From positions 3,645,583-3,709,582 of the forward strand of contig NC_090617.1 in NCBI RefSeq assembly GCF_004359215.1: a DNA stretch of 64,000 nucleotides. Direction: 5' to 3'. Numbering within the stretch: position 1 is the stretch's first letter; the number at the start of each line of letters is the position of its first letter. The notes beneath the pieces were generated by a model, which worked only from the letters and a program-made list of their open reading frames with translations, searched no databases and was not told the DNA's origin. The position numbers and the translations under genes are program-made. Positions 1 to 64,000 of the stretch are shown here, piece by piece. This DNA is from Bremia lactucae (lineage: Eukaryota > Oomycota > Peronosporomycetes > Peronosporales > Peronosporaceae).

Positions 1-223
1 CCGGCGAATTAACGCGGCGCGTGCGCTTAGTGCGAGGTTGTGTGGGCGTCTTCGCAGACGACCCACCAACGTGGCCCCTTTTAGGTGGCATCTTGGGCGC
101 CGTGTATAGAAACACGTGCGCGAGAGTGATCGAGTGAACTAGCGGCGCGTAAAGCTGCTCGCAGTTCCTCTCTCTACTCTGTCGAATTTAAAAATGTAAA
201 TTCGTTCTTAAAGAGGGGGATGG
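1..223 (+). mobile_element. 3' internal end and polypurine tract of an LTR family B element
   Basis: This stretch is nearly identical to 10303-10524 and immediately precedes an LTR in both places, so it is the 3' end of the internal region of a plus-strand element whose body lies left of the window. A purine-rich run at about 209-223 (AAAGAGGGGGATGG) abuts the LTR and fits a plus-strand priming tract. No intact ORF is visible. By analogy with the 9.0-10.3 kb copy it would include the upstream region of an antisense ORF; that is inference. Confidence 0.75.
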
Positions 224-797
224 TGTAACGGGCTAGAGTTGCCCTAATGTTACACAGTCCCCATTAAGTACATTTGGTACTTAAGGGGATGGTCAATTAC
301 TAAATAATAGTAATTAGACCCAACACTCGGGTGTGGTGCACATTTGTGACCAACCCTTGTGGATGTGATGCACATGGGTGCATTCACATTAGGAGGGATG
401 ACGCCCAGCGTCATCAGTTAGCGAGGTATCTACAAAGATACGCTCGCAATACATATTAAATGATATCTATAGAGATATCATTTTAATTGGTAAAAATAGG
501 TATTTGTATTTAATTCTATTAAATATAAATCAGTCTGAAATTTACTACCTACTTGGTAAGTGCGCACGAGGAGACGGATTACCGCTCCCGTGACGTCACT
601 TCACCAGAGTTCTTAGTGTGTTGGGTGAGGTCGCTTGCGCGCCCACCACAACTACCTCACTGCACGCAAGAGAAGCAGGTGCAAACCGCTTCCTCGCTGT
701 GCTAGGGTGTGTGCTTAAGAAGAGCGTGGCCGCATTACGACGTGCCCGCCTACAGAAAGTCTTCCTCTGACTTTAGGAGCGAGGTAGCTCCGTTACA
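224..797 (+). repeat. LTR, family B (3' LTR)
   Basis: A 574-bp repeat starting TGTAACGGGC and ending CTCCGTTACA, so the termini are inverted (TG...CA). A second truncated copy starts at 10525. It contains strong short hairpins: arms at 264-271/277-284, 421-431/436-447 (one bulge) and 458-468/473-483 (11 bp perfect). The target duplication cannot be tested because the 5' LTR is outside the window. Confidence 0.8.
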
Positions 798-7378: not shown

Positions 7379-8418
7379 CCTACGGGGAAAAACAATATGT
7401 CCATGAATTGGTGTATCTAGTGACGTTCACTGTGATGAACGAACAAACACGCCGGGACCAAGCTCGACGAATATGTGTCCCGACTAGAGCGTGTTACAAT
7501 ACCCGGATGCAATTTTGTTGCTTCATTGCATTGGCTACGGGTCGAAGTTTAATGCCGTTTAGAAGAACGAGTTCTGCCGATTTTTCACGAACTCGATCAA
7601 AGTTTTGTTTATAGATAAAGTACGGATGAAAAAGTAAAGTAAATGCATGACAATTTTGCCAATTGATTTCCATTTTGGTCTTGGGAGTCAGTTGCCGTGT
7701 TAGAAATTACGACGTCACGATGCCGAATCAAAAAGAAGCGCATTTCATTGCATCGATACTTGCCAATCAGCCAATAATACATAAGTTGCTTCTATTGTAT
7801 CCGTCTTAGTGATTGTCGCGACCACATTTGCCTCACAATACTTCGGTCTCCAAATGTATTGTCTCAGGTATTGGCAATAATCTTTTGGCACTCCACTGTA
7901 TTAGTGTGGCACTATCTCTCGCCAATCTCGGCGTACAATTCCTCAATTCTGTTAAATTGTGGATAGCAAAGTGATATTTGTACAGCAATTTCCTGGGATC
8001 ATGAACGATTTAACATGATAACTAATTTACTAGATAAATAATCATTTTTATTATTTTATAAATGTTTATTTTTGAGGTAATACTTATTGTGAATGTCAAA
8101 ATACGGAGCCATGCAAATATCCGACATCATCTTGACGGACGACCATCGCAAAGCACATTAAAAGCACGTCAATTACCTGTAATGGAATAATAAAGAAGAA
8201 TAAAATATTATCTTTTTTGATAATGTTGTCAATATTACCACACATGGTAAAATTGCGGCAGTTATGCGATAGTTTTGTTCATCGGCTTATTCGAGTCCTT
8301 CAATCAATCCCACCAATCGCTGCTCGATGCGCAAATGGGCGGTGAGCATAAGCAATGTTCACAGTTCCATATAAATACAAATATTTTTTATTAGATTCAA
8401 AGTGTCGATTTCCAATTA
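7379..8418. other. intergenic, AT-rich
   Basis: The 3' flank of the zinc-finger gene followed by AT-rich DNA up to the LTR at 8419. No gene, RNA or repeat is recognised. Confidence 0.5.
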
Positions 8419-8856
8419 TGTAACGGGGTGTATCGTTACATGAAATTAACAATAAAAGATTGTTAATTAATATTATCCAAAAGATAGATAATATTTGGAG
8501 GAAATTACTTTAAATAGTAATTTCCTGAATTCTTATCCATAAATAGGTATAGACCATTATGTCTATTTATTCCGCGGTCCAGTCAGTGCTGGTCGCGCGC
8601 AAAGAGAAAGACAAATAAGACTTTTATTACATTTTTTTGTATTAGTTTATAATTAAGTTAGTGTTAAGCAGATAATACGGAAGAACTTAATTATATAAAT
8701 TCAATTTTTAATTAACCCTCTTTAAAGCAAGGTTTTTAAGAGAGTCTTCCTCTTCACGTCCTAGTGTACTTGACGTGGCGTGAGGCACCACTCGCACTGA
8801 GGCAGTGCGAAGGGGACTTGTACTGAAGCAATAAAAGTCAGTAGTGCCCCGTTACA
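8419..8856 (+). repeat. LTR, family A
   Basis: 438 bp starting TGTAACGGGGTG and ending GCCCCGTTACA. Copies occur at 16134-16578 (minus), 23607 to the gap (minus), 24950-25296 (rearranged), 25440-25879 (plus) and 48273-48701 (plus). Five-base flanks (AATTA and TAAAT) do not match, so this is either a solo LTR with altered flanks or a recombinant. No primer-binding sequence follows it. Confidence 0.85.
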
Positions 8857-9050
8857 TAAATGAGGTCGCATACCCCCAATCGTCTAAAGAGACCAATGGT
8901 GACGCCGACTGTGAGTCGAGCGTCGTTCGGGTGAGGGGGACGGAGAAGGCTAAAAACTATCAGCTGACTGACTCCTCGCATCACGAACAGGACTCGAAGA
9001 GCGATGGACATCACGCGAGTAACGCGGATTCCTCAGCGTTATCCTCTTAA
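8857..9050 (+). pseudogene. fragment of LTR-element polyprotein C-terminus (tentative)
   Basis: An ORF of low-complexity Ser/Asp/His/Glu-rich sequence ends in a stop at 9050. It lies on the sense strand of the family B element whose 3' LTR begins at 10525, in the position expected for the hydrophilic tail of pol. No catalytic domain is present; the assignment rests on position and composition. Confidence 0.3.
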
Positions 9051-10310: not shown

Positions 10311-10524
10311 TTACGCGGCGCGTGCGCTTAGTGCGAGGTTATGTGGGCGTCTTCGCAGACGACCCACCAACGTGGCACTTTTTAGGTGGCATCTTTGCCG
10401 CCGTGTATGGAAACACTTGCGCTAGAGTGACCGAGTGAACTAGCGGCGCGTAAAGCTGCTCGCAGTTTCTCTCTCCTCTTTGACGAATTCAAAAATGTAA
10501 ATTGGTTCTAAAAGAGGGGGATGG
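10303..10524 (+). mobile_element. 3' internal end and polypurine tract of second family B copy
   Basis: Near-identical to 1-223. The purine tract AAAGAGGGGGATGG ends at 10524, directly against the LTR. Confidence 0.75.
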
Positions 10525-11052
10525 TGTAACGGGCTAAAGTTCCCCTAACGTTACACAGTCCCCGTTAAGTACATTTGGTACTTAAGGGGATGGTCAATAG
10601 CTAAATAATGGTAATTAGACCCAACACTCGGGTGTGGTGCACATTTGTGACCAACCCTTGTGGATGTGATGCACATGGGTGCATTCAAATTAGGAGGGAT
10701 GACGGCTAGCGTCATTCGTCGCGAGGTATCTAGAAAGATACGCTCGCAATACATATTAAGTGTTATCAATAGAGATGACATTTTAATTGGTAAAAATAGG
10801 TATTTTTATTTAATACGATGAAATATAAATCAGTCTGAAAACTTTTTCCTGTTTGGTAAGTGTGCACGAGGAGCCGAATTACCGCTCCCGTGACGACTCT
10901 TTACCAAAATACTTAGTGCGTTGGGTGAGGACGCTAACGCGCCCACCGCAACTACCTCACTGCACGCAAGAGAAACAGGTTTAACCGCTTCCTCGCTGTG
11001 CTAGGGTGTGTGCCTAAGTAGAGCGTGGCCGCATTACGACGTGCCCGCCTAC
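10525..11052 (+). repeat. LTR, family B, 3'-truncated
   Basis: Matches 224-797 from TGTAACGGGC onward, but homology stops at GCCCGCCTACA near 11052, where family A LTR sequence begins abruptly. The LTR has lost its last 40 or so bases at this junction. Confidence 0.8.
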
Positions 11053-11356
11053 AAATATTCGGAAGCTTATCCATTGGTAAATACAGGCCATTATATCTAA
11101 TTGGTCCGCGGTCCAGTCAGCACTGGACGCGCGCAAAGAGAGAGACCGATAAGACTTTATTTCATGTTTGTATTAGTATACAACTAAGCAAGTAATAAAT
11201 AGATGGAAACAAAAGAACTTAATTAGATTGAAAGCAGTTTAGTCTTAACCCTCTTTAAAGCAAGTGTCTCCAAGAGTCTTTCTAGTGTACGTGAAGTGAC
11301 GTGAGGCCCACTCGCACTGAAGCAGTGCGAAGTGGACTTGCACTGAAGCTGTAATG
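11053..11356 (+). repeat. internal fragment of LTR family A
   Basis: Begins in mid-LTR (AATATTCGGAAGCTTATCC, compare 48360-48400) and runs to CACTGAAGCTGTAATGGGGC without the usual end. Truncated on both sides and joined to the B LTR on its left. Confidence 0.7.
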
Positions 11357-15955: not shown

Positions 15956-16133
15956 TATCGAATCTTTACCTAGACTATACTGGATACTTGTTAATCGATA
16001 CAGTTCGGCATCTAAGACTTTTATAACATATTAAACTTTTCGGATCTTTTTCTCCGAACACATGGCTTCGATACTTAATCTTAATTAACATTTCTTCTGT
16101 ACTTTGCCATATTAAACGCTTTCCGAAGATGCG
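15956..16133. other. flank of A-family element
   Basis: Short AT-rich sequence before the LTR; no feature. Confidence 0.4.
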
Positions 16134-16578
16134 TGTAACAGGGCACTGCCGACTTGTACTGCTTCAGTACAAGTCCACTTCGCACTGCCTCAGTGTGAGT
16201 GGTGCCTTACGTCACTTCACGTACACTTGTACGTGCAGCGAAAGTCTTCTTTTTAAAACATTTGCTTTAAAGAGGGTTAGTTTAAAAACTGTATTAATGT
16301 AATTAAGTTCTTCTTTCTATCTACTGAATACTAACTTAATTATAAACTAATACAAAACATGTACTAGTTTATAATTAAGTTAGTATTAAGTAGATAGAAA
16401 GACTACTAAAAATCTTGTCTGTCTTTGTCTTTGCGCGCGTCCAGAGCTGACTGGACCGCGGAGAAAGAAGATATTATGGTCTATATCTACTAATGGAAAG
16501 CCTTTAGAATATTACCATGTAAAGTAATATTCTCCAACTATTAAGTGTTAAATTCATGTAACGACACACCCCGTTACA
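16134..16578 (-). repeat. LTR family A, 3' LTR of Ty3 element 1
   Basis: 445 bp in minus orientation: on plus it starts TGTAACAGGGCAC and ends CACCCCGTTACA. The adjacent plus sequence TCACCCCTTCCTT (16579-16591) is, on minus, a purine tract directly upstream of the LTR. That defines this as the 3' LTR of an element lying to the right. It contains an internal inverted repeat of about 40 bp (TAATTAAGTT... near 16295-16400). Confidence 0.85.
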
Positions 16579-16695
16579 TCACCCCTTCCTTAAACGACAA
16601 TCACTCTGACTGTCATTGGGTAGAGTGGTCACTATAAGACCACTTTATGGAAAACGAGGTGGATTGGTCAGATTCGTTTTTTTTAATTATATCGC

Positions 16696-18382
16696 ATGGT
16701 TAACAAATCCATCCGGTATGCGAAATGTGCGGCGCCTTCGGCTGTGGTTCATGCAGCCGCGGGCGACGCAATATTGTCTCTTGCGGCAGACGTTCCGTCT
16801 GCCGTGGTGTCACCTTCTCCCGCAACTCTAAATGCTGCGGGTGCACGTGGTGATACACCACGTGAAAGCGAATCCTCTTTAGAGGTCGACGACGAATGCG
16901 AGTCGGACGAAATGGCAGACTCGGGGAGCAAGCAAAGTCGCCTGATGATCGTCAGGCGGCTGACCATGAGCCTTCGAATGAGGGGGCTCATTCGAGTAGA
17001 CGTGCTGGTAGCATTCGCTACAGCATGTTCGGTTCCAACGATGAGTATGATTCCTCATCGCCAGCACCGTCCTTCTTGTCGTCACCCGCACACATTTCTG
17101 TGCGTGGTGATGACGATGGCGTAAGCCATCGTAATAAAAGTTCTTGTTGTACACCTGCTTCAGTGGGTACCACTCTGGGGAGTGAAGACAATAAAATGTC
17201 TCATCTCACTCCTGAAAAAAAAGCCGTGGCTTTTGCGAGAACGGCTAATCATTAGCTTGTCTGGAGAGACTACTCCTCACAATAAATATCCTTATTTATT
17301 GCGACAAAGCTACATGGCCTTGATCCCAGCGCGAAGAATTTTCGCGCTGAGAAAGATTTTTTATCTCGATGCTTTTTCCAAGCATCGATGGTAGAGTGGC
17401 AACAATAAGCGAGATAAAGTCTCACTTATGCATGCCTGGAGCGCGTTCATTCGCAATGTCAAAGACATTGGATGCGAAGTCTGGCTTCAAAGACTTGATG
17501 CGATTCGCGTTAAGTTTATGAAACGAACTTAAAACGGGGCAAGGTATAAATTGCATCGGTTGCCACGTGATGCTGGGCTTCCATGCCTCACGTGGGGTGA
17601 TCCCTGTCCGTGTTGTGTTGACAACACGAAGAGCGTAAAAGGGGATGTCTATTCCATTTCTTCGCCCTGGGAAAGGGCTCGCATCTCTATTGAGATGCGG
17701 GATGCGATTGACGTTTTGCAATCGATTTACAGGCGCCAAGGGCGCGTGTTTTCCGATGGACCTTCTGATCCATCGGATGGATCTCGTCATACTGACGGAC
17801 GAGGCCCTCAATGTCAGCAATCAGCTTGAAACGAGGCTCTTAGCTGTCATGTGAAGGTGGATAACCGCGCCAGCGAACAAGATAACTATGTCGCTGCCCC
17901 TTAACGTCACGGTGGTTTTGGATAAAATCAACCAGCAAACGTTGACCATTGTGGAAATCCACCAATGGTTGTGGCGGAGGAGTAAAAGGTAGATTTGACA
18001 CATGTGTCGAGTCGAAGATCGACAACGTGATCGCTTCCTCCATGATTTGGATGAGGGACACGATCACAAACGCGGTAAGCGTTGCTCGTTAGAGCAGACG
18101 GAGCAGGCTCATCATATCGAACGGTTGGAAGACCATTCAAAGAGTGCGTGCTCCATGTTGGAGTACGAACGGAATTATCACGCTCTTCGTGATGAGCTGT
18201 CGTCAGCTCATCACGGTTTCGATGATCTTCGGAACCGGCATAAGAATCTCCAGATCCAGCATGAGAATTTGGTTCGTGACCACAAGAATCTTTTAGGGAT
18301 TCTTGAAAAGGGTGGTCAGATCCGGCCTCGGAGGAAACCGCGTGCGGATGGTACGGGTGGAGCCGACCAATGTAAAACGTAG
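16696..18382 (+). pseudogene. antisense gag-like ORF of element 1
   Basis: Plus-strand coding runs opposite to pol. Blocks in order: Ala-rich N-terminus (16696-16900); Ser/Asp-rich stretch with SLRAGS-like sequence and EYDSSSPAPS (16896-17255); a compact block with RRIFALRK, LQRLDAIRVKFMK and CLTWGDPCPCCVDN (about 17320-17830); and a clear coiled coil (18002-18382) rich in His/Glu/Leu heptads and ending RRKPRADGTGGAD. Frame changes or stops occur near 16900, 17250, 17400 and 17830. The last block overlaps, on the opposite strand, the pol linker before the chromodomain. Related blocks recur at 58.6-58.9 and 61.0-61.3 kb. Antisense ORFs are reported in some plant Ty3 lineages; the relationship and function here are unknown. 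Confidence 0.55.
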
Positions 18383-18407
18383 GATGCGTTCGCATCCTGC
18401 GTGGCAA
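17830..18407 (-). pseudogene. pol linker and chromodomain of element 1
   Basis: After the integrase tail motif MRTHPTFYIGRLHPYH (about 18400) comes a long hydrophilic linker and then a chromodomain core near 17960-17840 (FIQNHRDVKG, then SYLVRWRGYPPSHDSWEP across a frameshift). Chromodomains on Ty3 integrases target insertion to modified chromatin. Frames differ between linker and core, so the gene is broken. Confidence 0.75.
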
Positions 18408-18694
18408 TTCTATTGTGTACGCAATGCCTCTGCGATGCAGTACACGGAATGGCCCAATGAACTTGGGTAGTAGTTTACTGCTACCCGCATTAGTGACTAC
18501 ACGCTTGGGTAAGCATACCGTTGAGAGTAGTACTAGGTCATTAATTTTAAATGAAAGAACGTTTGCTCTTTCATGTCGTCTGCGTTCCGTTTCTGACAGT
18601 CCACTGCATTAGCAATGGAATCCTGTACGAAAACGGATTACTGATTCTCGAGTTAGCAGAAATTCTTCTGCTGACTCATTTGTTTTGTCTTTTT

Positions 18695-19694
18695 TCAGTA
18701 CGCTTTGTGCGTACTACCATGAGATAATTCTCGTCTTTGATGTCGTTTTTTCGACATCGACATCACTCGCGTCGTTGTTAACTTCGACGCGTGACGAGCA
18801 TGAGCCAGCAATGGCTTTGCTCGAGCGAGTCCACCCCCCCCTCTTAAAGTAAAGGATCCCTCTAATTGGGTGGGTATGCGAGGATGGCGTAAGCCATTCA
18901 CGAACAACGGTGTATGCGTTGTAGACGCATGCACCGAATTATTGTTGGCGAATTCGACCATCGAATAAAACTCGCTCCAATTCGAATCCGATTGGAGTAA
19001 CCTTGAAGTATATCTTCGAGGACACGATTCACGCGTTCCATCTTACCATCTGTCTCTGGATGATCAGAAGTTGACATAGTCAGCCGTCTTCCGAGAGATT
19101 GGAAAACGGATTGCAAAACTCCGCCGTAAACCATGGATCTCCATCCGAGACCAGTTCATGGGGCAACCCGTGGAGTATGAATACCATGTCGATAAAGACA
19201 CGGGCACAGCCCGGAGCCGTGATCGACTCTGGTACTGCAGCAAGATGTACCATCTTGCTGAATCTGTCTACAAAAACAAGAATTTCATTGTTTTTGTGGT
19301 CGCCTTTGGGAAATCCGAAGGCGAAGTCCATAGACACGGACTGCCAACACTCTGCCGGAAGGGGTAGAGGATGGAGAGGCGCACGGGATGAAGGGCTAGG
19401 CATCACCCGTTGACATACTTCGCAAGCACGAATGTACTTGCGCACGAACTGATACTGGCTGGGCCAGTAAAAGTCGCGACTTACTGTGGGTAAAGTTTTC
19501 TCACGTCCACGATGCCCACTTGTTGATGAATTGTGGCACTTGATGCGCAAGCGCAAATCATTGTGAGTTGGGACGACGACACGTGGAGTGTCGCCGGCAA
19601 CGGCTGTGTAATTCAATAAGCCGTTACGTGTTGTGTATCGATCGGATGACGATCGATATAAAGGCGGTAAATCCTCAAAAGATATATCAAGCAT
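18695..19694 (-). pseudogene. integrase region of element 1
   Basis: The zinc-binding HHCC portion is visible as HNSSTSGHRGREKT...CEVCQR. The core begins with SMDFAFGFPKGDHKNNEIL (first catalytic Asp) and continues VFVDRFSKMVHLAAVP and LVSDGDPWF (second Asp; canonical SDRD is altered to SDGD). After a frameshift comes STSDHPETDGKMERVNR, which contains the catalytic Glu. It integrates the cDNA in intact relatives; here it is inactive by frameshift. Confidence 0.8.
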
Positions 19695-20100
19695 AGCAGG
19701 TCCTTATCTTTTTTGGAGGCTTTCTTTATGTCATGAACTAAGGTTGATGACGGAACACTCGTACTGAGTGTTGCAACAATGGGATTTTTTTAACTGTTAG
19801 AGTGCACTGCTGACTCGAAATCGGGTCGGCGTGATAACACATCAGCGACGATATTAACTCGTCCTGGTTTATATTCGACGAAAAATTATACTCCGCGAAG
19901 AAGGATAGCCACCTCGCAATTCTTTGCGAGAGGTGTGGGCTATTTAAGACCGTGCGTAATGACGCATGGTCCGTAGATACGATGAACGGTCTATCTCCTC
20001 GGAGTTAGACCCTAGACTTACAGTGCGTATTTCATGGCAAGGAGTTCCTTGTCATGCACTGGGTAATTGTGTTCAGCTGTTGCAGCTGACGCGATTGATA

Positions 20101-21000
20101 TCAGACGACGCGCTCCGTGCCGTCTGTATCGTATTGCATTAACGTGCAACCGATTGCGAAAACGCTGGCGTCACAGACCACATGGAATTGTCTGTCTTGA
20201 TCTGCAATCGCCAAGATGGGCGATTGCATCAAGCTTTGCTTGATACCTTCAAAGGAACGCTGACAATCAGCGTTCCATAGCGACGAGAGGTTAATTGTCA
20301 TCTCTGCATAGTTGCGAGAAAACTTGCAAGTACGCTGCTAAATCAAGGAACTTTTTAAGTCCCTTGACATTAATTGGAACTGGCCAGTCGGTAATTGCCT
20401 TGATCTTTTCGGGATTAGGGCGCACGCCGTGTTTACCGACGATGCACCCAAGAAGTGTTTTTTTAGGTGCAGCGAATATACACTTCTTGAGATCTGCGTA
20501 CAACTTATGCTTTCACATAAGTGTAAGAAACTGACGAACGTAAGTTTTATGAACTTCCGCGTCCGTCTTTCCGTCCATGGCTCGGCTATGGACGAATACA
20601 TCGTCATAATATTTCGGTGCGAATTCTCGCACCGGTCTCAACAGATTTATTACGCATCTGTTAAATGTTGCAGGGGCGTTACTAAGCCCCTGTGACATTA
20701 CAAGCCATTTTCAGAGCATCGCGCTAAAAGTGCTCACTGCTGTGTACAGGCTGTCCCGTTCACGCATAAGGATACGATAATATCCATCCATCAGATCCAT
20801 AGACGAAAATATGGTAATCGTAGACATAACATCGATGATTATGACTTTTGTAGGTATCGGCGTTTGAGCCGGCACTGTTGCAGCATTCAATTTGTTGAAT
20901 GCGTGCACTATCCGCCACCCTCCCGTGGTCTTTCGCACACAGAAGGTCGGAGAGCTATGTGGGGAGGTTGACTCCCTCACATGCCCGCTTTTAATCGACC
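20101..21000 (-). pseudogene. reverse transcriptase and RNase H region of element 1
   Basis: Motifs in order on the minus strand: FCVRKTTGGWRIVHAFNKLNA, SSMDLMDGYYRI (catalytic Asp), LSNAPATFNR, YYDDVFVHSRA (the YxDD site), KKCIFAAPKKTLLGCIVG and the RNase H start HVVCDASVFAIG. At least three frameshifts separate them. Confidence 0.85.
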
Positions 21001-21899
21001 GATAAAGAATTTATCGATTGCAAGTACTTGTTCACGAGGCAGTGGCCACTGCTTCATGACACAGTACTTCGAGCCCGGTTTGAGCTCGATCTCATGTCGA
21101 GTGCCTTTATCCTTAAGCAACTCGCATGGAACTGCTTCAGAAAATACATCCCTGAATTCTATTAAATCCTCGTGTAGAGCATTTCCCTTGAGTGACTCCC
21201 AATATTAAGTACTGTATCTTTCAATCCGAGTCTTCACATCGAGGACACTTTCGGTCATCGATGAGCCGCTGAGAACGCTTTTGTTCTCTGCAAAAGTTAC
21301 CGCTGACCGAATGTCGGTTACGTATTCGTCCTCTGTGACGAGTACGCAGATCTGATTGATTGTACCATAATGTAGATCTCTCAAGAACCGCTTGGGTTCT
21401 AGGGTTGGTAATTGTTTATCTCCGAAGTTAACTTCGAAGGCGCATACAGATCAAGAGTAGAAGCGCCTACTCTTGTTCCGAAATTATTCAAGACATTCAA
21501 CGTCTCGGTTTCTTTCTGGGATGTGTCCACAGGCTGCAGAGGGATTAATCCCTCGGGATCTAGAAGTCTAGTAACTTCCGCTATTTGAGGGGATTTCTCC
21601 TCAAGTACGTGGGGACCTCTTCCCTCAACGTCTTCCGAGTGTGATTGCGCTATCACAGTCGGGTCCTCTATGGTCGACTCTCTATTTGACCTAGTTTCAT
21701 CGTGTTGTCCATTTTGAACAATCGCTATCTTCCTTGAATGTCGCCCGCTAGGCGTACATTAATGTCTCAATTTACTCGACTTATTCGAGTGGTGGACCTA
21801 CGGCGCTGTCAGTGAACTCGCACAGCCGCCGGCAGCTGACTCCACAATGTGATTGGTAATCACACTGTGATCTTGTACAGTCGTACTAACGACCGTACC

Positions 21900-22319
21900 A
21901 CAAGTAAGGCCATTGCACTCACTCGCAGTACATCCACACGCTTGTGGACGCTCCAAGACGTTGATTAAATGGCCATCTGATGAACAAGTGGAATGCATAT
22001 TTACGGATCGGTGCTGCCAGCAGATCCTTAGCTCATATTTTCTGAGCCAAGGTAGACCTAAGATGACATCGAATTTGTCATCCGAATCCAGTACGATGAA
22101 CTCATCATCGTACTGTAAATTTCTTAACGTGTAGTGAAATGTTACTACGCATTTCATTACTGTTATCGATGCGCCTGTCGCTAGACGCACCGTCATGCTC
22201 GTTGGAAGGATGTCGCGCTCAACATATTTGAGCCTACGACCCTCTAACGACTGGTGACGAATAAAGTAATTCGACGCTCGACAGTCCACCAGGGCTTTAA
22301 GTGACAAACCATTTGTCAC
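21900..22319 (-). pseudogene. retropepsin-like protease of element 1
   Basis: The segment with LKALVDCRASNYFIR holds the active-site Asp, but the usual D-(S/C)-G-A glycine is replaced by Arg. Element 3 has DCGASNNFIR at the same place. The second conserved block FDVILGLPWLRKY is present. The glycine change alone would be expected to disable it. Confidence 0.75.
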
Positions 22320-22559
22320 ATTAAATTTCCAGGTGCTGAGGGATACCTCACCACCAGGTGTAAAGACACATAATTATTGTGTGTCTGGAGCAATTTTAGT
22401 CAAGAGATTTGCAAATTCCTTTGACGTTGCTGGATCAGTAGGGCGTTGCGCCCCTACTGACCCCGACCGTATTTTGGCGGTCCGCCTCGCTGTTGCAATT
22501 TCGCAACAACGTCGATCCCGCGACCGTTGCTCTTTTTAGCATTCCGTCCATAATTACGT

Positions 22560-23491
22560 TCAGTACCTCTCGGTACTAGGCGTGGAACACTACATTCATG
22601 AGCGTAGTGTCCTAACTTTTAACAGCGATTGCATCGAGAGGTTTCTCGCTTTCGATATGAAAGAGGCCCATCGGTTCTGGACCTCCCAACTCGTGTCGTC
22701 TTGGAGGACGATACGATGATAAACTAGCTTGAGCCTGTCTCAAGCTAAAGTCCTCCTGTTCCGCAACGGATATTGCTTCTTCAAGCGTATCTAGTTCCAT
22801 GTGGAACACGTGGGTCTTTACGGGAGCATCTGCAATACCTTGCGTGTACACCGTAATCAACGTGTGTCCATGAACTGGATTGTTCGTGATACAACTCGCT
22901 AAGAGTCGTATGTGTTGGGCATAAGTGTGAACATCACGCTTGCCTTGCTTGATTTTCAGAAGCTATGATCGAGCTCTGAACTCAGCCCTAGGCGGTTCAA
23001 ACGTCGTTTTGAGCTGGGCTTTAAAAGCCTCTAGCGACCCAAAGACATATGGGTCGCGCAACTTAAGGTCTAGTGCCCAAGTTTTGGCACGACCTGCCAA
23101 ATTTGACTGAGCAAATGCGACGCGTTTGCTCGTCGACGATGTGACAAGCCCTTATGGCATCCTCCAACTCGACAAACCATCTTAAGAGGGAGTCTTTTTC
23201 GACTTCCCTATACTTAGAGGTGTCAATCTTTAAGTTTTCCGGACGAAGCGTGTGCGTCATCCCAGGTACAGGGGTCTGTACCTGCTGTAACCTCAACAGT
23301 TCTGCCTGTTGAGAGCCTTGCTGATTAAGCAAGGCTACCTTTTCCTTCTCCATCGCCTCGTCAAGTTCATGTTGTATGAAATTTGCGATGGCTGGATGGA
23401 TAGCATCTCTGTCCAAACCGAACAGCATGCCCAAGATGGCATCATCCCTACTGTCGAACTTTTTTGTTCGACGCACTCCTTTCAATGTCAC
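22560..23491 (-). pseudogene. gag region of element 1
   Basis: Capsid-like sequence: a KVALLNQQGSQQAELLRLQQ coiled stretch, RWFVELEDAIRACHIVDEQ, then after frameshifts HMELDTLEEAISVAEQEDF and the CCHC zinc knuckle (C-x2-C-x4-H-x4-C near 22630-22580) with an in-frame stop inside it. It is collinear with 25936-26899 of element 3. Confidence 0.8.
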
Positions 23492-23606
23492 TTAGAAAGT
23501 AGTAGCTTTCACGGTAAACGTGATGCGTACATCCATTATCATCTAGTATGTCCATGTAAGATGATTAGAGCTGTGGTCCTTGAACGGACTACAAAGTGCT
23601 ACCAGG

Positions 23607-23760
23607 TGTAACGGGGCACTGCCGACTTGTACTGCTTCAGTACAAGTCCACTTCGCACTGCGTCAGTGCGAGTGGTGCCTCACGTCACTTCACGTACACT
23701 AGTACGTGCAGAGGAAATCTTCTCTTTATACACTTGCTCTAAAGAGGTTTTATAAGACTG
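23607..23760 (-). repeat. LTR family A, 5' LTR of element 1, cut by gap
   Basis: Plus sequence TGTAACGGGGCACTGCC matches the LTR end at 16134 onward and stops at the run of N. On the minus strand it is followed by CCTGGTAGCAC, the primer-binding site. Confidence 0.8.
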
Positions 23761-23860
23761 NNNNNNNNNNNNNNNNNNNNNNNNNNNNNNNNNNNNNNNN
23801 NNNNNNNNNNNNNNNNNNNNNNNNNNNNNNNNNNNNNNNNNNNNNNNNNNNNNNNNNNNN
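23761..23860. other. assembly gap (100 N)
   Basis: Unsequenced. Sequence on its two sides belongs to different elements. Confidence 0.99.
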
Positions 23861-25296: not shown

Positions 25297-25439
25297 AGCG
25301 CCGATGTGCCCGGTGAATGGTTGTGGCCCTTAAAGATCAAAAACCAAGTAAGTGTTAAATGAGATATATAAAAAGGTATGAGTCGCGGCTGACGACCCTG
25401 TTTTCTAGTATGATAGATTAGGAAAGCTGTTAGAATTTC
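25297..25439. other. short unclassified spacer between two A LTRs
   Basis: No feature. Confidence 0.4.
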
Positions 25440-25879
25440 TGTAACGGGGTGTATCGTTACATGAAATTAACACTTAAAGTTGTTAATTAACATATATCTA
25501 GAAGGTAGATAATATTTGGAGGATATTACTTTATATATTAATATTCAGAATTCTTATCCATAAATAGGTATAGACCATTATTCCTATTTATCCCGCAGAC
25601 TAATCAACTGTAGATGTAAACAAAAGAGAGAGACAGATAAGAAAAGGTAAGATTTTAATTGCATGTTTATTATTAGCTAATAATTAAATTTGCATTAACA
25701 AATAGAAAGAAGAGATACTTAATTAAATTGATACAGTTTTCATTTAACCCTCGTCAAATTAGTTGTCTTAAAGAGAAGTCTTCCTCTGCACGTACTAGTG
25801 ACGTAAGGCACCACTCGCAACTAAAGCAGTGCGAAGTGGACTTGTACTGAAGCAATACAAGTCGAAGTGCCACAATACA
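25440..25879 (+). repeat. LTR family A, 5' LTR of element 3
   Basis: TGTAACGGGGTG to GTGCCACAATACA, 440 bp, immediately followed by the primer-binding site. Confidence 0.85.
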
Positions 25880-25890
25880 CCTGGTAGCAC
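25880..25890 (+). promoter_or_regulatory. tRNA primer-binding site of element 3
   Basis: CCTGGTAGCAC directly follows the 5' LTR. The same sequence sits at the corresponding place in element 1 and beside the minus C LTR. The TGGTAGCA core resembles the initiator-Met tRNA 3' end complement commonly used by LTR elements. Confidence 0.6.
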
Positions 25891-25935
25891 TTTGTTGTCC
25901 ATCCAAGGACCACAATTCCCACATCTAACATAGAC

Positions 25936-26899
25936 ATGTTAGATGATAATGGGAATACGCATCACGTTTCGCTTGATAGCTACTCCTTTCTAAGTGACAT
26001 AGAAAGGAGTGCGGTAGAACGAATGAGTTCGACCGATGGGAACGATGCCATCTTGGCCATGCTGTCCGGTTTGAACAGAGATGCCCTCCATTCAGCCATC
26101 GCCAAGTTCATACAACATAAAATTGACGAGCTGAAGGAGAAGGTAGCCTTGCTGAATCAGCAAGGCTCTCAACAGGCAGAACTGTTGAGGTTACAACAGA
26201 TACAGACCTTGGATGACGCATACGCGTCGTCCGAAACTTTAAAGATTGATATCTCTAAGTATAGGGGAGTCGAAGAAGACTCCCGTTAGAGATGGCTTGT
26301 CGAGTTGGACGATGCCATAAGGGCACGTCACATCATCGACGAGCAAATGCAAGTCGCATTCGCTCAATCAAATCTGGAAGGTCGTGCCAAAACTTGGGCA
26401 TTGGGCCTTGAGTTGCGCGACCCATACGTCTTTGGGTCGCTAGAGGCTTTTAAAACCCGGCACAAACAGTCGTTTTACGGATGGTCCTATAAAGACCCAC
26501 CTGTTCCACTTGGAACTGGACACGCTTGAAGAAGCAATATCCGTTGCGGAACAGGAGGACTTTATCTTGAGACAGGCTCAAGCTAGTTTGTCATTGTATC
26601 GTCCTCCAAGACGACACGAGCTGGGAAGTCCAGAACCTATGGGCCTCTTTTATGTCGAAAGCGAGAGACCTCACTTTTCGAGCAATAAGCGATCGCAGAA
26701 ATGCCATCGCTGCCAAAAATTAGGACACTATGCTCATGAGTGTAGTGTCCCACGCCCAGCACCGAAAGGCACTGAACGTAATTTTGGACCATATGTTAAA
26801 AAGGGCAACGGTCGCGGGTCCGATGTTGTTGCGAAATCGCAACAGCGAAGCGGATCTTCAAAAAATGGTCGGGTCAGTAGGGGTGCAACGCCCTACTGA
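25936..26899 (+). pseudogene. gag of element 3, broken by one stop and one frameshift
   Basis: Three ORFs (25936-26289, 26305-26529, 26510-26899) together form one gag. They contain the QQGSQQAELLRLQQ coiled stretch, a capsid-like block with DAIRARHIIDEQ and LGLELRDPYVFGSLEAF, HMELDTLEEAISVAEQEDF-like sequence, and a complete CCHC knuckle CHRCQKLGHYAHEC at about 26702-26743. Gag packages element RNA into virus-like particles. The TAG near 26287 and the shift near 26500 inactivate it. The coding sequence is an almost continuous series of hairpins. Confidence 0.85.
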
Positions 26900-26962
26900 T
26901 CCAGCAACCTCAAGAAAATTTGCAAATCTCTTGACTAAAGTTGCTCCAGACACACAATCATT

Positions 26963-27089
26963 TTGTGTCTCTGCACCTTGAAGTTGAAAGTGACAAATGA
27001 TTTGTCACTCAGAGCCCAAGTGGACTGCGGAGCGTCGAATAACTTTATTCGTCGCCAGTCGCTAGAGGGTCGTAGGCTCAAATATGTTG
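26963..27089 (+). pseudogene. protease fragment of element 3, cut by gap
   Basis: Contains AQVDCGASNNFIRRQSLEG, a retropepsin active site with the glycine intact. Interrupted by the gap at 27090. Confidence 0.75.
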
Positions 27090-27189
27090 NNNNNNNNNNN
27101 NNNNNNNNNNNNNNNNNNNNNNNNNNNNNNNNNNNNNNNNNNNNNNNNNNNNNNNNNNNNNNNNNNNNNNNNNNNNNNNNNNNNNNNNN
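27090..27189. other. assembly gap (100 N)
   Basis: Unsequenced. Sequence to the right does not continue element 3. Confidence 0.99.
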
Positions 27190-32499: not shown

Positions 32500-33237
32500 A
32501 ATTAGGGTGAGCTGCCACTTCCTCTCCAATCAGATTGAGGAGGTTTGAATTTTCATAGGATTGCGCAGTTGCAGCTAATGAATATCAGCTTAAAGGTCTT
32601 GTCCAACAGCTTCCTCATTCGAATATCCATTGCTTTCTGTGGCACTTCCTGCTGTCTTCCCTGGTTAAACAGACCAGTTTGGTGTGGTTGACAACAGTTT
32701 GACTCGTGATCTTGTTCCAGGCTGCCATTATCAACGCATTGCTGTGAGCTTTCCACCTTTTACAGCTCAATTTTTTAGGCTCGTCACGGTCCTGGGCATT
32801 CTGAAGGCGATGGCGGCAATAATGGCGCTTAAAGCTAATATGATGCCAGCATCCATGGGCTTAACCTTGGGTATTGCATTGGGCGAAATGAGGAGAGCAT
32901 TGACATTATTAAGCTGAACGTCCTCCCAAATCTTTGAGGGAGCATAGCCAAGGAGGAGAAGGATCATGCGCTTCTGTTTCTGTAAGGCAATTGGTTATAA
33001 GAGCACAAACCAAAGGTTTTCTGAGTCTTGCACGTATCAAAGCAAATTTTCATGTCCATTTCTAGCTTCAGAAACCATTCCTGGAAAAATACTATCGGAA
33101 CAACGAAAGGTCATCCAAGCCCTTTCGTTGTTCCGATAGTAACATTCCAGTTGAGCACCAGTCTTTTTTTTGGAAAGTACGCGATTTCCTAGCATGCCCG
33201 ATGAAATAGGGCGGAAGCTTCTCTGATCCATCCGCAT
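32500..33237 (-). pseudogene. pogo/DDE_1-type transposase pseudogene
   Basis: Minus-strand blocks in order: YYRNNERAWMTF followed by a SIFPG block (33160-33050), then after a frameshift RMILLLLGYAPSK (about 32970-32930), then QLNNVNALLISPN and KVKPMDAGII (about 32905-32830), then LTAMR and a downstream Trp block near 32750-32690. These match the conserved series of DDE_1 transposases (pogo, Tigger, jerky): AWMT, LLLDNAPSH, LPPNTT.QPLDAGII. The second catalytic Asp in LLLDNAP is Gly here. Several stops follow. It no longer encodes an active enzyme. Confidence 0.7.
33091..33140. repeat. 50-nt perfect hairpin inside the transposase pseudogene
   Basis: Arms 33091-33110 and 33121-33140 are exact reverse complements (20 bp) around a 10-nt loop. 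The left half on the minus strand is the position where transposase similarity is lost, so one arm may be a copy of the other. Confidence 0.85.
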
Positions 33238-42134: not shown

Positions 42135-43277
42135 ATGAGGGCGTACTCTACGTGGGATACCGCTCGAACAGTAGTCGGCTGCCCACTGCCAGAGTGTCGA
42201 GATCTCGGGATCACCAAGGCGCATATATGGTGGAGCTGTCGAGCAGCGAGGCCACGATGGAGGGAGTTTCTGGGAAAGTGGTTAGACCTCGGATTGCAAC
42301 TGGAGGCTAATGATCCCCGTTCCATATTTGGTTTCAGGTTGCAAATGGTGCCAACTGGAATTTGGCAGGTGCTGCAGCAACTTAATGGAAACTTGGCAGA
42401 GGCACAGAAGGAGGAGATATATAGCTGGTGCTATGACACCTTAAACGAGCACTGGCGACTGGGAGTTTTGCAAACGCTTCAGGCCGTATGGAACCGACGA
42501 TGCAGAAGCAGGGACGCGTCGCTGGACAACTCGCTATGTCGTGCAATAGCCCTTTTTCGAGGTCGATTACACCAAGGGCGGCTTACGTTACGAGAATTCG
42601 TTTTGACGGGACGACAAGATGAGGCGGTCTGTCGTGCGGCATGGGTTGTACATGCGGCTTTTGATGGCACTTCCGGGAGGCTTATGGAGGAGCTCCGTTG
42701 TAGGGATGACAGAGGGTACAGGAAACTATTCTTTGATGGGGGTGCGCGAAGGAATCCGGGTCCCGGGGGAGCCGGATCCAACATTGTTGTGGGCGGAATG
42801 GCCTCCAATCCGCCAGCTATTATATGGATGGGCAGCGTCTCGCTCGCTGCCTCCGCCACAACTAACAACGTGGCTGAGTACAAGGGTCTCCTGTTTGGTC
42901 TCAGGAAAGCCCAGGCCTATAAACTGGATGGTCTTCACGTGGTCGGAGACAGTAACCTCATATTGGGGCACATGAGGAGGAGAAAGCCGCCGAAAGCACG
43001 GCATTTGCAAGACCTATACCGACAATGCAGGACAATCGCAGACCGGTTGAATGTGGCCACATGGCAACATCATCTTCGCCATTTCAATAAAATGGCGGAT
43101 GCTCTGGCTAACATAGCTATGGACTCGAAGAAGAGCACACAAATCATCCAAGCGGACGTGAAGCGGCTCCCTTCACGGTGGAAAAGCGTCACGGAGGCAC
43201 TAAGAGGGGACTTAGGTCACTGGATCGACATGAATGGGACAGCAGACGTTGATAAGGTGCGCGGTGAGGCTGGATAA
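42135..43277 (+). CDS. RNase H domain ORF, C-terminal part of a non-LTR (LINE-type) element
   Basis: An intact 380-residue ORF. Near the N-terminus a zinc-binding motif typical of the end of LINE reverse transcriptases appears (CPLPEC, then HIWWSC). Residues about 190-330 form a type I RNase H: KLFFDGGARRNPGPGGAG (first catalytic Asp), NNVAEYKGLLFGL (Glu), HVVGDSNLILGHM (Asp), NKMADALANIAMD (fourth Asp). All four catalytic acidic positions are present. In the frame just upstream the similarity continues without a start, and no reverse transcriptase is visible, so this is a 5'-truncated element. RNase H would remove RNA from RNA/DNA hybrids. Whether the ORF is expressed alone is unknown. Confidence 0.75.
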   Translation: MRAYSTWDTARTVVGCPLPECRDLGITKAHIWWSCRAARPRWREFLGKWLDLGLQLEANDPRSIFGFRLQMVPTGIWQVLQQLNGNLAEAQKEEIYSWCYDTLNEHWRLGVLQTLQAVWNRRCRSRDASLDNSLCRAIALFRGRLHQGRLTLREFVLTGRQDEAVCRAAWVVHAAFDGTSGRLMEELRCRDDRGYRKLFFDGGARRNPGPGGAGSNIVVGGMASNPPAIIWMGSVSLAASATTNNVAEYKGLLFGLRKAQAYKLDGLHVVGDSNLILGHMRRRKPPKARHLQDLYRQCRTIADRLNVATWQHHLRHFNKMADALANIAMDSKKSTQIIQADVKRLPSRWKSVTEALRGDLGHWIDMNGTADVDKVRGEAG

Positions 43278-60352: not shown

Positions 60353-60700
60353 TGTAACAGGCTTTTAAAGCACTGAATCCAGAAAATTTGAAGAAGTACC
60401 TTTATGGACACCCTCAAATAATATATGAACTTGTACTTACCGAAGAATGTTTGCTTGTCAGTGAAAATAGGAGATGTTGACAATGGAACTTTAACATCCT
60501 TTCGTATCAGCTTTGGCTTGATAAATAGGAGCTGCAAAAACGCAGCCCATACCATACAATATACGTCCTAAAATTTGCGCATTGGGGAAGCCTTGTCAAT
60601 CCATCTGCACAATTCTCGTCAAGATGCCAAACTAGATGTAGTACAGTTTGGAGGACTCTCATCTCTAGCGCAAGAAGCGCTCGTTCTTCGATGGACCTTC
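60353..60700. other. spacer after MULE relic
   Basis: No gene; AT-rich with no recognised repeat. Confidence 0.4.
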
Positions 60701-60900
60701 TGCCGAGGAGTATGGGTCTCGTCTTGCACTGCAAAACGAGACCCGGAACGCCCAATCAGTTGGGAACGAGGTTTTCAACTATCATGCGAGATTGGATACC
60801 CTCGCCAACGAATGAGATAGCTCGTTCAAACCCTCTTTGTCTCACGGTGCTTCAAGGTTCTTTTATCAATAAACCGCTTCTCACCACCTCAATACATCAA
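60701..60900 (-). pseudogene. chromodomain of Ty3 element 2
   Basis: Minus frame near 60830-60755 reads SYLIRWRGYPISHDS then a stop and PRSQLIG. It corresponds to SYLVRWRGYPPSHDSWEP of element 1. Confidence 0.65.
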
Positions 60901-60999
60901 TGGATGTGAAGGGGAAGGATATATCGGATTTGCCTCGTTTGACGAACCCGAATCAACATCGCGTTTGGGATCACGTCCTTATTATTCAAGGTAGGCTCT

Positions 61000-61300
61000 T
61001 GACCACGAGCAATCTCGTCGCCGCGAGTTAGCGGTGACAGTCGACAATGTGTTTCGTGACCAGTTAATAAATTGTGCGCAGGTTGTGACTGATCAAATGG
61101 CGAATAAAAGGACACATCAGTCCCTTCAAAACGAGCTGTTGACAACTCGTCAGAAGATCTCTTCATTGAAGGAAAGAGTGGATCGTCTGGCTCAGGAGAA
61201 TCAGACCCTGTTCTAAGACAATAAGGCTTTGGCTCGGAACCATCGGAGGAAGCCTCGTACTGATGGTATTGGCGGAGACGCCAAACATAAAGCGTGGGAT
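61000..61300 (+). pseudogene. antisense coiled-coil ORF of element 2
   Basis: The plus-strand ORF 61034-61216 reads DNVFRDQLINCAQVVTDQ, then HQSLQNELLTTRQKISSLK and ERVDRLAQENQTLF, a strong leucine-heptad coiled coil. After one TAA the frame continues NHRRKPRTDGIGGDAKH, the same ending as the element 1 antisense ORF (RRKPRADGTGGAD). Confidence 0.55.
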
Positions 61301-61807
61301 GCGTACGCATACAATGAGGCAGCCCGATCGTGTATGCATTGCCTTGGCGATGGTATACACGAAATGGGCCGATATACCTGGGCAGTAATTTATTACTGCC
61401 TACATACTTCACAAAATGCTTCGGTATTTTTTTTTACCGTAGAGAGTAGCACTAGATCATTAATTTTAAATGAATGAACATTTGCTCTTCCATGTTTGTC
61501 TGCATTCCGTTTCTGTCGGTCGACCACATCAGCGATGGAATCCTAAACGAAACGGACCTCTGCTTCTCTAGCCAGCAGGAAATCACCTGCTGACTTGGTT
61601 TTATTTTTGTTTTCAGTACGACCGGCTCGCACTTCGGAGATATTAATCTCTTCATCATTGATAATTTTATCATTTTCAATAATAATTTTGTTTTCGATGC
61701 TGAGTCGTTCAGCATCGTTATCTAGGTCAGTAAAAGCATTATGGTTATTACTGAGTTTGTCCACTTCAATGTTTGCTAACTCAACATTGGAATCCTTCGC
61801 CTTGACC

Positions 61808-62390
61808 TTATGGCTTATGCTTAGAGAGCAGGAGCCAAAAGCTTCCTTGCTTGAGCGCCCCCCCCCCTATGAAGGGGTTACTCCCAAACAGGGTAGGTAT
61901 ACGAGAGTGGCGTAAGCCATTGACCAAAAACGGTGTATGCTTTGTAGAAGCATGCACTGAATTGTTAATGGCAAAATCTACCATCGGCAAGAACTCGCTT
62001 CAACTCTCAGAAGAGTGGACGTATCCGCGAAGTATCTCTTCGATAATACGGTTTGCACGCTCCGTCCGATCATATGTTTCAGGATGATCAGAAGTTAACA
62101 ATTTTATTTTTTTTGAATGTTTTGGACACGGTTTACCAAAATTCCGCCGTGAATCTAGGGTCTTGATCTAAGACCAGTTTACGGGGGAACCCATGGAGTT
62201 GAAATATCGTGTCCATAAAGACACGAGCACAGGCTTTGGCTGTGATTGACTCCGGAACGGCAGCGAGATGTACCATCTTGCTAAAACGGTCAACGAAATA
62301 AGAATGTAATTATTCTTGTGGTCTCTTCGAGGAATCCGAAGACGAAGTCCATAGCTACGAACACTCTGTCGTAACAGGCAGAGGTTGTAA
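61808..62390 (-). pseudogene. integrase of element 2
   Basis: Fragments: HKNNYILISLTVLARW and MGSPVNWS (62340-62168) and MPMVDFAINNSVHASTKHTPFLVNGLRHSRIP (61990-61890). Frameshifted throughout; the N-terminal zinc-binding half is missing because of the deletion near 62388. Confidence 0.65.
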
Positions 62391-63571
62391 CGGAGCACGG
62401 GATGCGACTGCAAAGTCGCTGGCGTCACAGACCACATGAAAAATTTGGTCTTGGTCATCAATCATCAGGGTTGACGATTGCATCAAGCATTTCTTGGTAC
62501 CCTCGAAGGAACGCTGGCAATCAGGCTCCATGATAATTTGATATTTTTCTTCAACAAAGAAGAAAGACGAGCAGTCAATTTGGCATAATAGAGTGAGTAC
62601 ATGTGCAGGTATGCCGCTAAACCGAGGAATTTTTAAGTCCCTTTACATCGACTTGTAGAGGCCAATCGGTGGTCACCTTGATCTTTTCTGGGGGCGAACA
62701 CCTTGTTTTCCCACGATGCACCCATGAAGTAATATTCACTTGCAGCAAATATACAATTCTTGAGATTCGCATACCCATATTTCAACTCGTGCTTATGCAT
62801 AAGTGTAAGAACGGACGTGGGTACAATGTACTTTAACGTCCGACTTTCCGTTCATGTCTCTGCTATGAACGAAGACGTCATCAAAGTAGATCGGTGCAAA
62901 ATCCCGCACCATTCTCAACAGATTTGTTACACATCAGTTAAATGTCGCAGGGGCATTACTAAGTCCCTGTGAAATGACTAGACCTCCGATAGCATAAAGC
63001 TTGGGGTCCTTACTTCTGTGAACGGAATATCTTGTTCACGAATGAGGATCTGATAGAATCCAGCCATCAGATCCATTGACGAAAAGATAGTACTCTTTGA
63101 CATAACATCAATGATTGCGTTTTTTTCGTGGTATCAGCGTTTGAGCCGGTATAGTTGCAGCGTTCAGTTTGTTGAATGCATGCACTATCCGCCATCCTCC
63201 TGTTGCTCTTCGCACACAAAAGGTCGGAGAACTATGGGAGAAATTAATACACTCACATGGCCCGCTGCTAAACGTTCGGCAAAGACTTTGTCGATCGCTA
63301 TTAATTATTTACGAGGCAATGGCCATTGCTTCATGACACAGTATTTCGAACCTGGAATTAGGTCAATTTCGTGTTGAGTGCCTCTGTCCTTAGGCAACTC
63401 GCACGGTACTGATTCAGGGAAGACATCCTTAAATACCTTTAAATTGTTATATAAAGGGTTTGTTTTTAAAGATTTGTCCATCGATGAGTTACTGAGAAAT
63501 CGTTCGTTCTCAGAAATTCTACCGCCGATCGAATATTGGCCACGTAGTTTACATGTGTGACAAGTACGCAA
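62391..63571 (-). pseudogene. reverse transcriptase of element 2, fused to integrase by deletion
   Basis: ELPKDRGTQHEIDLIPGSKYCVMKQWPLPRK begins the RT. Downstream frames include GWRIVHAFNKLNA-like, SSMDLMAGFYQI-like, PATFN and DDVFVHSRDMN-like blocks, each in a different frame. The RNase H start HVVCDASDFAVASRAP is cut off and joined to integrase sequence. Confidence 0.7.
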
Positions 63572-64000
63572 ATCTGCTTGACGCCACTTGAGTTACCTCC
63601 GAAGTTGACTTCCGAAGTGCTTATAGATCACGTGTATAACCGCCTACACTTGATCCATTGTTTACTAATACATTGATTGTCTCAGTTTCTTTTCAAAATT
63701 ACCTGGGAACCTTTGACCACAGGTTTCATGGGACTTATTCCCACAAGTTTTTTTTTGGGGTATTCTCCTCTACTGCCTCTAGCTGTGGTTGCGCTACCAC
63801 GGCGAGATTCTCTACAATCGACTCTCCAGTGGATCTAGGACTTTCGCACTGTCTCTTATAGACTGGCGTTTAAAAATTTCTTGGACGTTGCTTTTCAATC
63901 AAGCATCCTTGTTTCGTATCACTCAGCTTATTCGAGTGGTCGAATTTTGACGCTGCCTGTGCTTGTGCAGAGCCGTCGAATCAAACTCCACAATGTGTCG
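63572..64000 (-). pseudogene. protease-RT linker of element 2, cut by window edge
   Basis: Collinear with 21.4-21.85 kb of element 1 (shared TTCGAGTGGT, CACAATGTG and CGAAGTTGACTTC motifs). No intact ORF. Confidence 0.55.

Follow-up and report, generated by a model that had tools for sequence, protein, structure and literature searches.

Short perfect inverted repeats throughout a Ty3/gypsy retrotransposon clade of Bremia lactucae and the forces that may keep them

The window analysed here is a stretch of 64,000 nucleotides on contig NC_090617.1 of the oomycete Bremia lactucae, whose genome comprises 115.9 Mb in 220 contigs. The available part of the assembly report gives 115 Mb with 24 Mb of gaps, and Gypsy elements as 58.6% of contig sequence (PMC6570648). 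The features that matter for what follows are collected in Table 1. Element 2 (E2) is the anchor of the family comparisons. Its two terminal repeats (16133-16255 and 23606-23728) are 93% identical over 123 nt, its 5' LTR is cut by an N gap at 23761, and single LTR copies match both of its ends. On the minus strand, the protease (22319-21801) is followed by the integrase (19694-19083), with 2.1 kb between them. Among the 120 matches listed of 261, protein relatives of this integrase come from Peronospora, Phytophthora, and Globisporangium, and two listed relatives (P0085 and P0098) carry PF17917/PF17919, which we take to be reverse transcriptase/RNase H domains, together with the integrase zinc-binding domain PF17921. 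Judged by the domains tested, the hairpin-bearing element looks like an ordinary Ty3/gypsy retrotransposon, and it shares with other oomycete Ty3/gypsy elements the LTRs, a CCHC gag, an aspartyl protease before the integrase, and, in one family copy (L032), a Tf2-1-like SH3 domain. Element 3, which supplied the first observation, is a decayed copy of its family, lacking about 160 bp near 26475 that are present in other copies. Runs of 100 N interrupt both elements (23761-23860 at the 5' end of E2 and 27090-27189 in element 3), and many N occur in other loci too.

Several further features deserve mention in their own right. A related gypsy family with a different, hairpin-rich LTR part occurs at 1-760 and 9203-11353 and in three loci elsewhere (L023, L038, and L040); in L040, its minus-strand ORF at 6427-6870 encodes a chromodomain. 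A 380-aa ORF at 42135-43277 has an RVT_3 (reverse-transcriptase-like/RNase H) domain and may be one of the RNase H-bearing retroelements that the accessible part of PMC5348765 describes for oomycetes, and an open 1851-aa ORF at 51980-57535 gives only a sub-threshold Erf4 match. In locus L039, a 423-aa ORF (7463-8731) joins a Crinkler-type N-terminal domain to HNH_2 and has no stem of at least 7 bp. Among the perfect stems listed for the window, a 23-bp inverted repeat with a 15-nt loop (16327-16387) near the 3' end of E2 is the longest; it falls outside the loop range of our site census. A second long one, 21 bp with a 10-nt loop (33090-33141), lies in DNA without E2 match and resembles a small-RNA hairpin or a miniature transposon.

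The initial annotation had described the gag region of element 3 as a nearly unbroken run of 11 short perfect hairpins. All 11 arm pairs are exact reverse complements, 9 of them with stems of at least 8 bp as it had stated, and the gag label is borne out by a CCHC zinc knuckle in ORF 26510-26899. Three of the stems extend inward, to 11 bp at 25982-25992/26000-26010 and at 26145-26155/26157-26167 and to 10 bp at 26989-26998/27000-27009, and extra stems of 7 or 8 bp lie at 25839, 26948, and 27036. With loops of 2-12 nt, we count 12 stems of 7 bp or longer in region 25905-27089, 9 of them 8 bp or longer; 100 dinucleotide shuffles give 0.58 and 0.17, respectively. The array is real, then, but it had been understated; neither gag nor element 3 is its limit.

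Table 1. Features of the window discussed in the text, with the recurrence of each gag hairpin among family copies
Feature	Positions	Strand	Remarks
LTR-like region of related family	183..760		5 stems of at least 8 bp in 578 bp, 0.09 expected
E2-type LTR	8416..8860	+	5 stems of at least 8 bp in 445 bp, 0.11 expected
Element 2 (E2): long Ty3/gypsy copy, same family as element 3, fragmented frames	16133..23760	-	5' LTR cut by N gap
Integrase of E2	19083..19694	-	Integrase_H2C2; rve below cut-off
Aspartyl protease of E2	21801..22319	-	RVP_2, 2.7e-8
LTR region of element 3	25353..25880	+	65% identity to E2 3' end
Hairpin, stem 10, loop 4, gag start	25922..25945	+	stem of at least 7 bp in 15/20 copies
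Hairpin, stem 11, loop 7	25982..26010	+	14/19 copies
Hairpin, stem 10-11	26145..26167	+	18/20 copies
Hairpin, stem 8, loop 6	26168..26189	+	14/20 copies; G-C to C-G paired change in sister family
Hairpin, stem 7, loop 6	26265..26284	+	16/20 copies
Hairpin, stem 8, loop 8	26417..26440	+	17/20 copies; outer pair changed on both sides in sister family
Gag fragment of element 3	26510..26899	+	zf-CCHC, 1.4e-4
6-bp stem, remnant of 9-bp stem of other copies	26566..26582	+	at least 7 bp in 10/14 rows (one row is N)
Hairpin, stem 8, loop 12	26723..26750	+	stem of at least 7 bp in only 2/13 rows; commonest form has an A-C mismatch
Hairpin, stem 8, loop 2	26827..26844	+	8/13 rows
Hairpin, stem 9, loop 8	26874..26899	+	9/13 rows
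Hairpin new to this analysis, stem 7, loop 9	26948..26970	+	9/13 rows
Hairpin, stem 9-10	26989..27009	+	8/12 rows; paired changes in copies L010 and L011
Hairpin new to this analysis, stem 7, loop 2	27036..27051	+	8/12 rows
Related gypsy element, 62-66% identity to E2	60668..63997	-	3 stems of at least 8 bp in 3.3 kb, about 0.4 expected

Across 20 rows of gag (one secondary match in L013 left out), we see about 28 recurrent sites; many are perfect in the majority of rows, and each copy has private losses. Over the whole 7.6-kb element, and with pieces shorter than 200 bp or less than 60% identical left out, there are 165 sites, of which 114 occur in at least two copies; for 66, three or more copies cover the site and at least half of them have it. 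Shared sites fall about once per 67 bp from LTR to LTR, coding sequence included; E2 itself has 36 stems of at least 8 bp where 1.07 are expected. Among the sites with a perfect stem in one to three copies, many have a near-perfect one in the rest. Several tests below are limited to 94 of the 114 shared sites, namely those found in at least 30% of covering copies. The arms meet in all codon registers: at 77 sites, position 3 faces position 1 in 36 cases, position 2 in 22, and position 3 in 19 (an earlier count over 14 sites gave 10, 3, and 1).

How far does this excess reach, and could chance supply it? In 20 arbitrary 10-kb loci (L021-L040), most of which hold copies of the E2 clade, 375 stems of at least 8 bp stand against 23.7 expected. 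Their density follows similarity to E2, at 6.26 per kb in DNA at least 78% identical (80.2 kb, including loci chosen for their E2 match), 4.01 per kb at 66-78% (22.0 kb), 1.24 per kb below 66% (21.7 kb), and 0.72 per kb in DNA without E2 match (152.5 kb, with LTR parts of related families still inside). For these classes, matches shorter than 150 bp, or overlapped over more than half by a kept one, were left out; L001 and L008 were dropped as duplicates. Low-complexity arms (fewer than three distinct bases) were omitted from most counts and retained in the arm-pair check, the listing of inverted repeats in the window, the gag rows, and the family-level and mismatch scans. The 12 longest of 47 open frames, which partly overlap, hold 72 stems of at least 8 bp versus 3.6 after synonymous-codon shuffling. 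Short LTR segments contribute as well, with 2 such stems in 830 bp (10524-11353) and 2 in 434 bp (48272-48705).

Controls from the same genome behave differently. No stem of at least 8 bp occurs in the 13.4 kb of six presumed host-gene ORFs (MyTH4/FERM, SIR2, thiolase, Crinkler, SRP54, and the 1851-aa ORF), versus 2.04 expected; for the 1851-aa ORF alone, the figures are 0 and 0.75. Two further controls of 2.0 kb each, a Copia piece and an RVT_1 piece, have 0 and 1. The clade also differs from other gypsy elements around it: four pol segments of gypsy elements at 56-59% identity together span 8.1 kb without a stem of at least 8 bp versus 1.3 expected (stems of at least 7 bp number 11 versus 5.1), and gypsy relatives at 60-69% identity have 0 to 5 stems of at least 8 bp per segment. 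MULE loci gave 17 stems versus 3.5, a count that falls to 4 in 17.4 kb when embedded E2 pieces are masked. Hairpin density is thus far above both shuffled sequence and host ORFs, the two comparisons that the initial annotation had proposed. Chance and composition are ruled out by the dinucleotide and synonymous shuffles. More broadly, we consider it exceedingly improbable that ordinary chance, composition, or a repeat artefact is the source of the hairpins: nothing speaks for such a source except the decay of single copies, and against it stand stem counts about 16- to 50-fold those of shuffles and 20-fold those of synonymous shuffles, as well as the presence of the hairpins in many copies.

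The hairpins have a characteristic geometry. In the array, stems measure about 7-11 bp, loops mostly 3-10 nt, and the whole span mostly 18-28 nt. Stems of at least 8 bp are in excess in the arbitrary loci only where the loop is about 0-13 nt long, most strongly at 4-8, and at loops of 3-8 nt there are 15 stems of 11 bp and 2 of 12 bp. Stem length is negatively related to loop length, and this relation, together with the bound on span, may arise partly from inner mismatches that turn stem into loop; we treat both as no more than a lead. Do the hairpins look as though they had been tuned for stability? At 91 sites, GC content does not predict stem length (rho -0.12, p 0.27; 0.02 in coding sequence). 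Nor did the family loops show a stable-tetraloop motif by eye, so that optimisation for stability is not visible, and we discard selection for stability on these grounds. On the sense strand, the loops are rich in A (0.399, SE 0.028, versus 0.274 and 0.291 in the flanks) and correspondingly T-rich on the cDNA strand, a strand asymmetry of the E2 family that is explained only in part.

When did the hairpins arise relative to the spread of the copies? Because copies share the sites, the sites were present in the copies' common ancestors. Variants confined to one copy are about as frequent per position in arms (0.551) as in flanks (0.573). In a cross-validated comparison, with one half of the copies defining the sites and the other supplying the variants, singletons were again equal (arms 0.392 versus 0.378), as were doubletons. 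Therefore, the arms show no special mutability or protection after insertion. A process that strikes all repeats after insertion can be dismissed on the sharing of sites, the equal singletons of arms and flanks, and the drop in the MULE excess on masking.

Variants shared by several copies tell a different story from singletons. Those present in at least five copies number 12 over 617 arm positions versus 65 over 1122 flank positions (p 1.3e-4), a comparison that the choice of sites partly biases; with hairpins taken copy by copy, the arm variant rate is 0.016 versus 0.045. In the cross-validated comparison, variants in at least three copies occur at 0.037 in arms versus 0.063 in flanks, with this direction in 200/200 splits and a Fisher p of 0.045 on mean counts. 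Odds ratios for shared variants are below 1 at all three codon positions, and none is significant (p 0.69, 0.27, and 0.12, the last for the third position). The depletion of shared variants in arms is modest.

The two arms do not vary independently, which had been the concern to settle by comparing paired changes across copies. Within the family, 81 alignment cells carry Watson-Crick changes on both sides versus a mean of 55.6 when the 3' letters are shuffled (maximum 68 of 200 shuffles); among all relatives of at least 60% identity, there are 252 versus 126.5 (maximum 152). These permutation results are optimistic, the copies being related, and one site (E2 15-39 and 16-39) entered the count in two registers. 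Partners slid by 1 to 3 columns within the family give 37 to 70 two-sided cells, and because one-column slides alone give 67 and 70, the within-family excess is the weaker figure. In relatives from families that are 60-75% alike, 46 hairpins have stems of at least 8 bp, and 29 of them have their centre no more than 2 nt away from a family site, where 3.4 would be expected; two near-identical segments of L030 make 2 of the 29 repeats. Of the 255 base pairs in these 29 shared hairpins, 233 show no change and 10 differ on both sides versus 1.0 expected, 8 of the 10 being Watson-Crick and 3 of these transversions. Divergence between families per side is 0.234 in arms versus 0.288 in local controls. 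Identity to relatives at 66-78% is 0.817 in arms, 0.758 in loops, and 0.794 outside; at 60-66%, the values are 0.708, 0.662, and 0.670.

Could such arms be made by mutation, with no benefit to the element? During reverse transcription, one arm could be copied onto the other by short-range template switching or by the correction of quasipalindromes, a process documented elsewhere in the part of PMC8794818 available. This would fit pairing that is Watson-Crick and strand-symmetric, stem lengths independent of GC, hairpins that occupy every codon register and occur in LTRs as well as in coding DNA, and a span bounded near 26-30 nt. Nonetheless, we think it unlikely that mutational drive maintains the array. 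Differences split evenly between the arms (mean |L-R| 1.74 versus a binomial 1.80, p 0.73, unpolarised; totals 460 left and 428 right), and sites with all changes on one arm number 63 of 165 versus 55.5 expected (sd 5.9). On this lack of a one-arm signature, we reject template switching in patches. Correction would also be expected to yield two-sided states, yet these are 1 of 45 among states in at least three copies and 2 of 115 among states in two copies, and symmetric correction alone does not predict arms more conserved than flanks.

Which molecule, then, would fold? One answer is the sense RNA, with structure selected genome-wide as in some RNA viruses for packaging, RNA stability, or escape from sensing. 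Folding the sense RNA, as had been suggested at the outset, does give energies well below shuffles (z of -2.5 to -9.8 in 240-nt windows, 8 of 47 frames), but the antisense folds equally well (-3.0 to -9.0). The A-rich loops would also suit sense RNA, as would arms more conserved than loops. RNA helices tolerate G-U pairs, and a sense-RNA fold predicts a clear G-U excess. This excess is absent from the mismatch counts. One-mismatch stems over 123.9 kb number 53 GT/TG, 53 AC/CA, and 47 others; family-level imperfect stems include 5 GU, 12 AC, and 4 others; and one-sided cells comprise 523 GU versus 629 AC. Majority pairs inside sites are 771 Watson-Crick, 6 GU, 8 AC, and 14 other, a count that the perfect-stem definition biases. 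Sense-RNA structure by itself is ruled against by the missing G-U preference, and sense-RNA structure selected genome-wide seems to us a rather poor prospect overall.

Another answer is the first-strand cDNA, on which G-T is the mildest mismatch. An A-C lean in some counts, including states in at least three copies (11 GU and 22 AC; controls 141 and 120), together with the T-rich cDNA loops, would suit this strand. We treat this sign as only a lead because other counts lean to G-U: by class of similarity to E2, from closest to most distant, GU:AC is 41:49, 7:2, and 5:2, so that the two more distant classes together show 12 versus 4; states in two copies are 39 GU and 29 AC; and hairpins shared across families have 6 GU versus 3 AC.

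Small RNAs offer a third answer, in which the hairpins would make 25/26-nt small RNAs of both strands fold on themselves and leave their target sites inaccessible, so that the element escapes silencing. The spans of stems of at least 8 bp peak at 23-26 nt and fall at 27 (103 matches at 23 nt, 64 at 26, 21 at 27, 5 at 31, and 15 at 32, counted in E2 relatives of at least 66% identity whose copies are not independent). In the portion of PMC3804510 available, small RNAs of Phytophthora retrotransposons are mostly 24-30 nt long with a 25/26-nt peak, close to the peak in span. Both strands fold equally, and 37% of sampled sense 25-mers and 40% of antisense ones reach -4 kcal/mol or lower versus 19% of shuffled ones (five copies). 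Against this explanation, the pol segments of gypsy elements at 56-59% identity, which lie in this genome too, do without stems of at least 8 bp, and the bound on span may merely reflect short loops plus short stems. We regard silencing escape as quite improbable as the explanation of the array.

In total, the observations outlined above are what one might expect if an array of more than 100 short perfect inverted repeats in one Ty3/gypsy clade were kept by selection in replicating copies, with Watson-Crick pairing needed, and we hold this explanation with moderate confidence. It builds on sites shared among copies, private changes equal in arms and flanks, positions kept between families, and pairing above independence. 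In the proposed mechanism, selection in replicating copies would keep those segments that are able to fold back. The folding molecule may require strict Watson-Crick pairing and hence would not be sense RNA alone, a step that we put forward more cautiously. We prefer selection as the maintaining force because shared variants are depleted in arms, two-sided shared states are few, and neither arm is preferentially loaded with changes; how the stems first originated is a separate matter. Thus, of the two readings offered initially, selection on structure survives in part, and the patchwise copying of arms and the sense-RNA fold go unsupported.

The identity of the folding molecule is something that we infer. 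Our first candidate, a tentative one, is the first-strand cDNA: inside the virus-like particle it is single-stranded, and hairpins would make the exposed strand more compact or shield it. The next, which we consider doubtful, is RNAs of both polarities, for example the 25/26-nt small RNAs of oomycetes, that would fold on themselves and silence poorly. Put most broadly, the whole retrotransposon genome might be armoured with more than 100 strictly Watson-Crick hairpins, selected so that its single-stranded DNA copy, or the small RNAs directed against it, folds on itself; we find this conceivable and somewhat short of even. Such protection would act at the level of DNA or of both RNA strands, whereas in RNA viruses it is the sense RNA that is structured.

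How does the array compare with known systems? The genome-scale ordered RNA structure (GORS) of RNA viruses is a pervasive internal folding that runs through coding sequence, and the E2 family likewise folds well below shuffles through its coding sequence. However, the family has short perfect Watson-Crick stems, equal on both strands and with no G-U preference, in an element that integrates as DNA; the sense-specific, G-U-tolerant structure of GORS was not found in it. Mitochondrial genes of Nematomorpha, as described in the accessible part of PMC6649704, contain coding palindromes with arms of up to 284 bp, and in both systems perfect inverted repeats in protein genes are kept along with the protein. 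The arms of the E2 family, in contrast, are 7-11 bp long, occur at more than 100 sites per element, extend into the LTRs, and belong to a retrotransposon. RNA hairpins attributed to template switching, in the part of that report available (PMC8794818), share perfect short stems and paired changes with the family, which differs in lacking a one-arm signature and in having almost no shared two-sided changes. The genomic RNA of yeast Ty3 has structured regions dispersed along it, and its 5' UTR and GAG hold a small number of short palindromes, six 6-nt sites of which one is tied to dimerisation; the available text of that study holds no perfect-hairpin array (PMC11381356). The accessible main text of the oomycete retrotransposon paper does not contain the words hairpin, palindrom, or inverted repeat (PMC5348765). 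In the open-licence literature, judged by titles and abstract openings, we found no report of a comparable hairpin array, and a scan of viral contigs confirmed no relative. The array is unusual.

What does the array mean for this organism? Protein-coding sequence here bears a second pattern, at the level of the nucleic acid, with about one shared hairpin every 67 bp. Given that copies of the clade lie in most of the arbitrary loci, a sizeable part of one genome is touched by it. Gypsy families without stems of at least 8 bp in the same genome provide a natural comparison, and the role of hairpins for a retroelement, be it cDNA protection, escape from silencing, or a by-product of reverse transcription, becomes a testable question.
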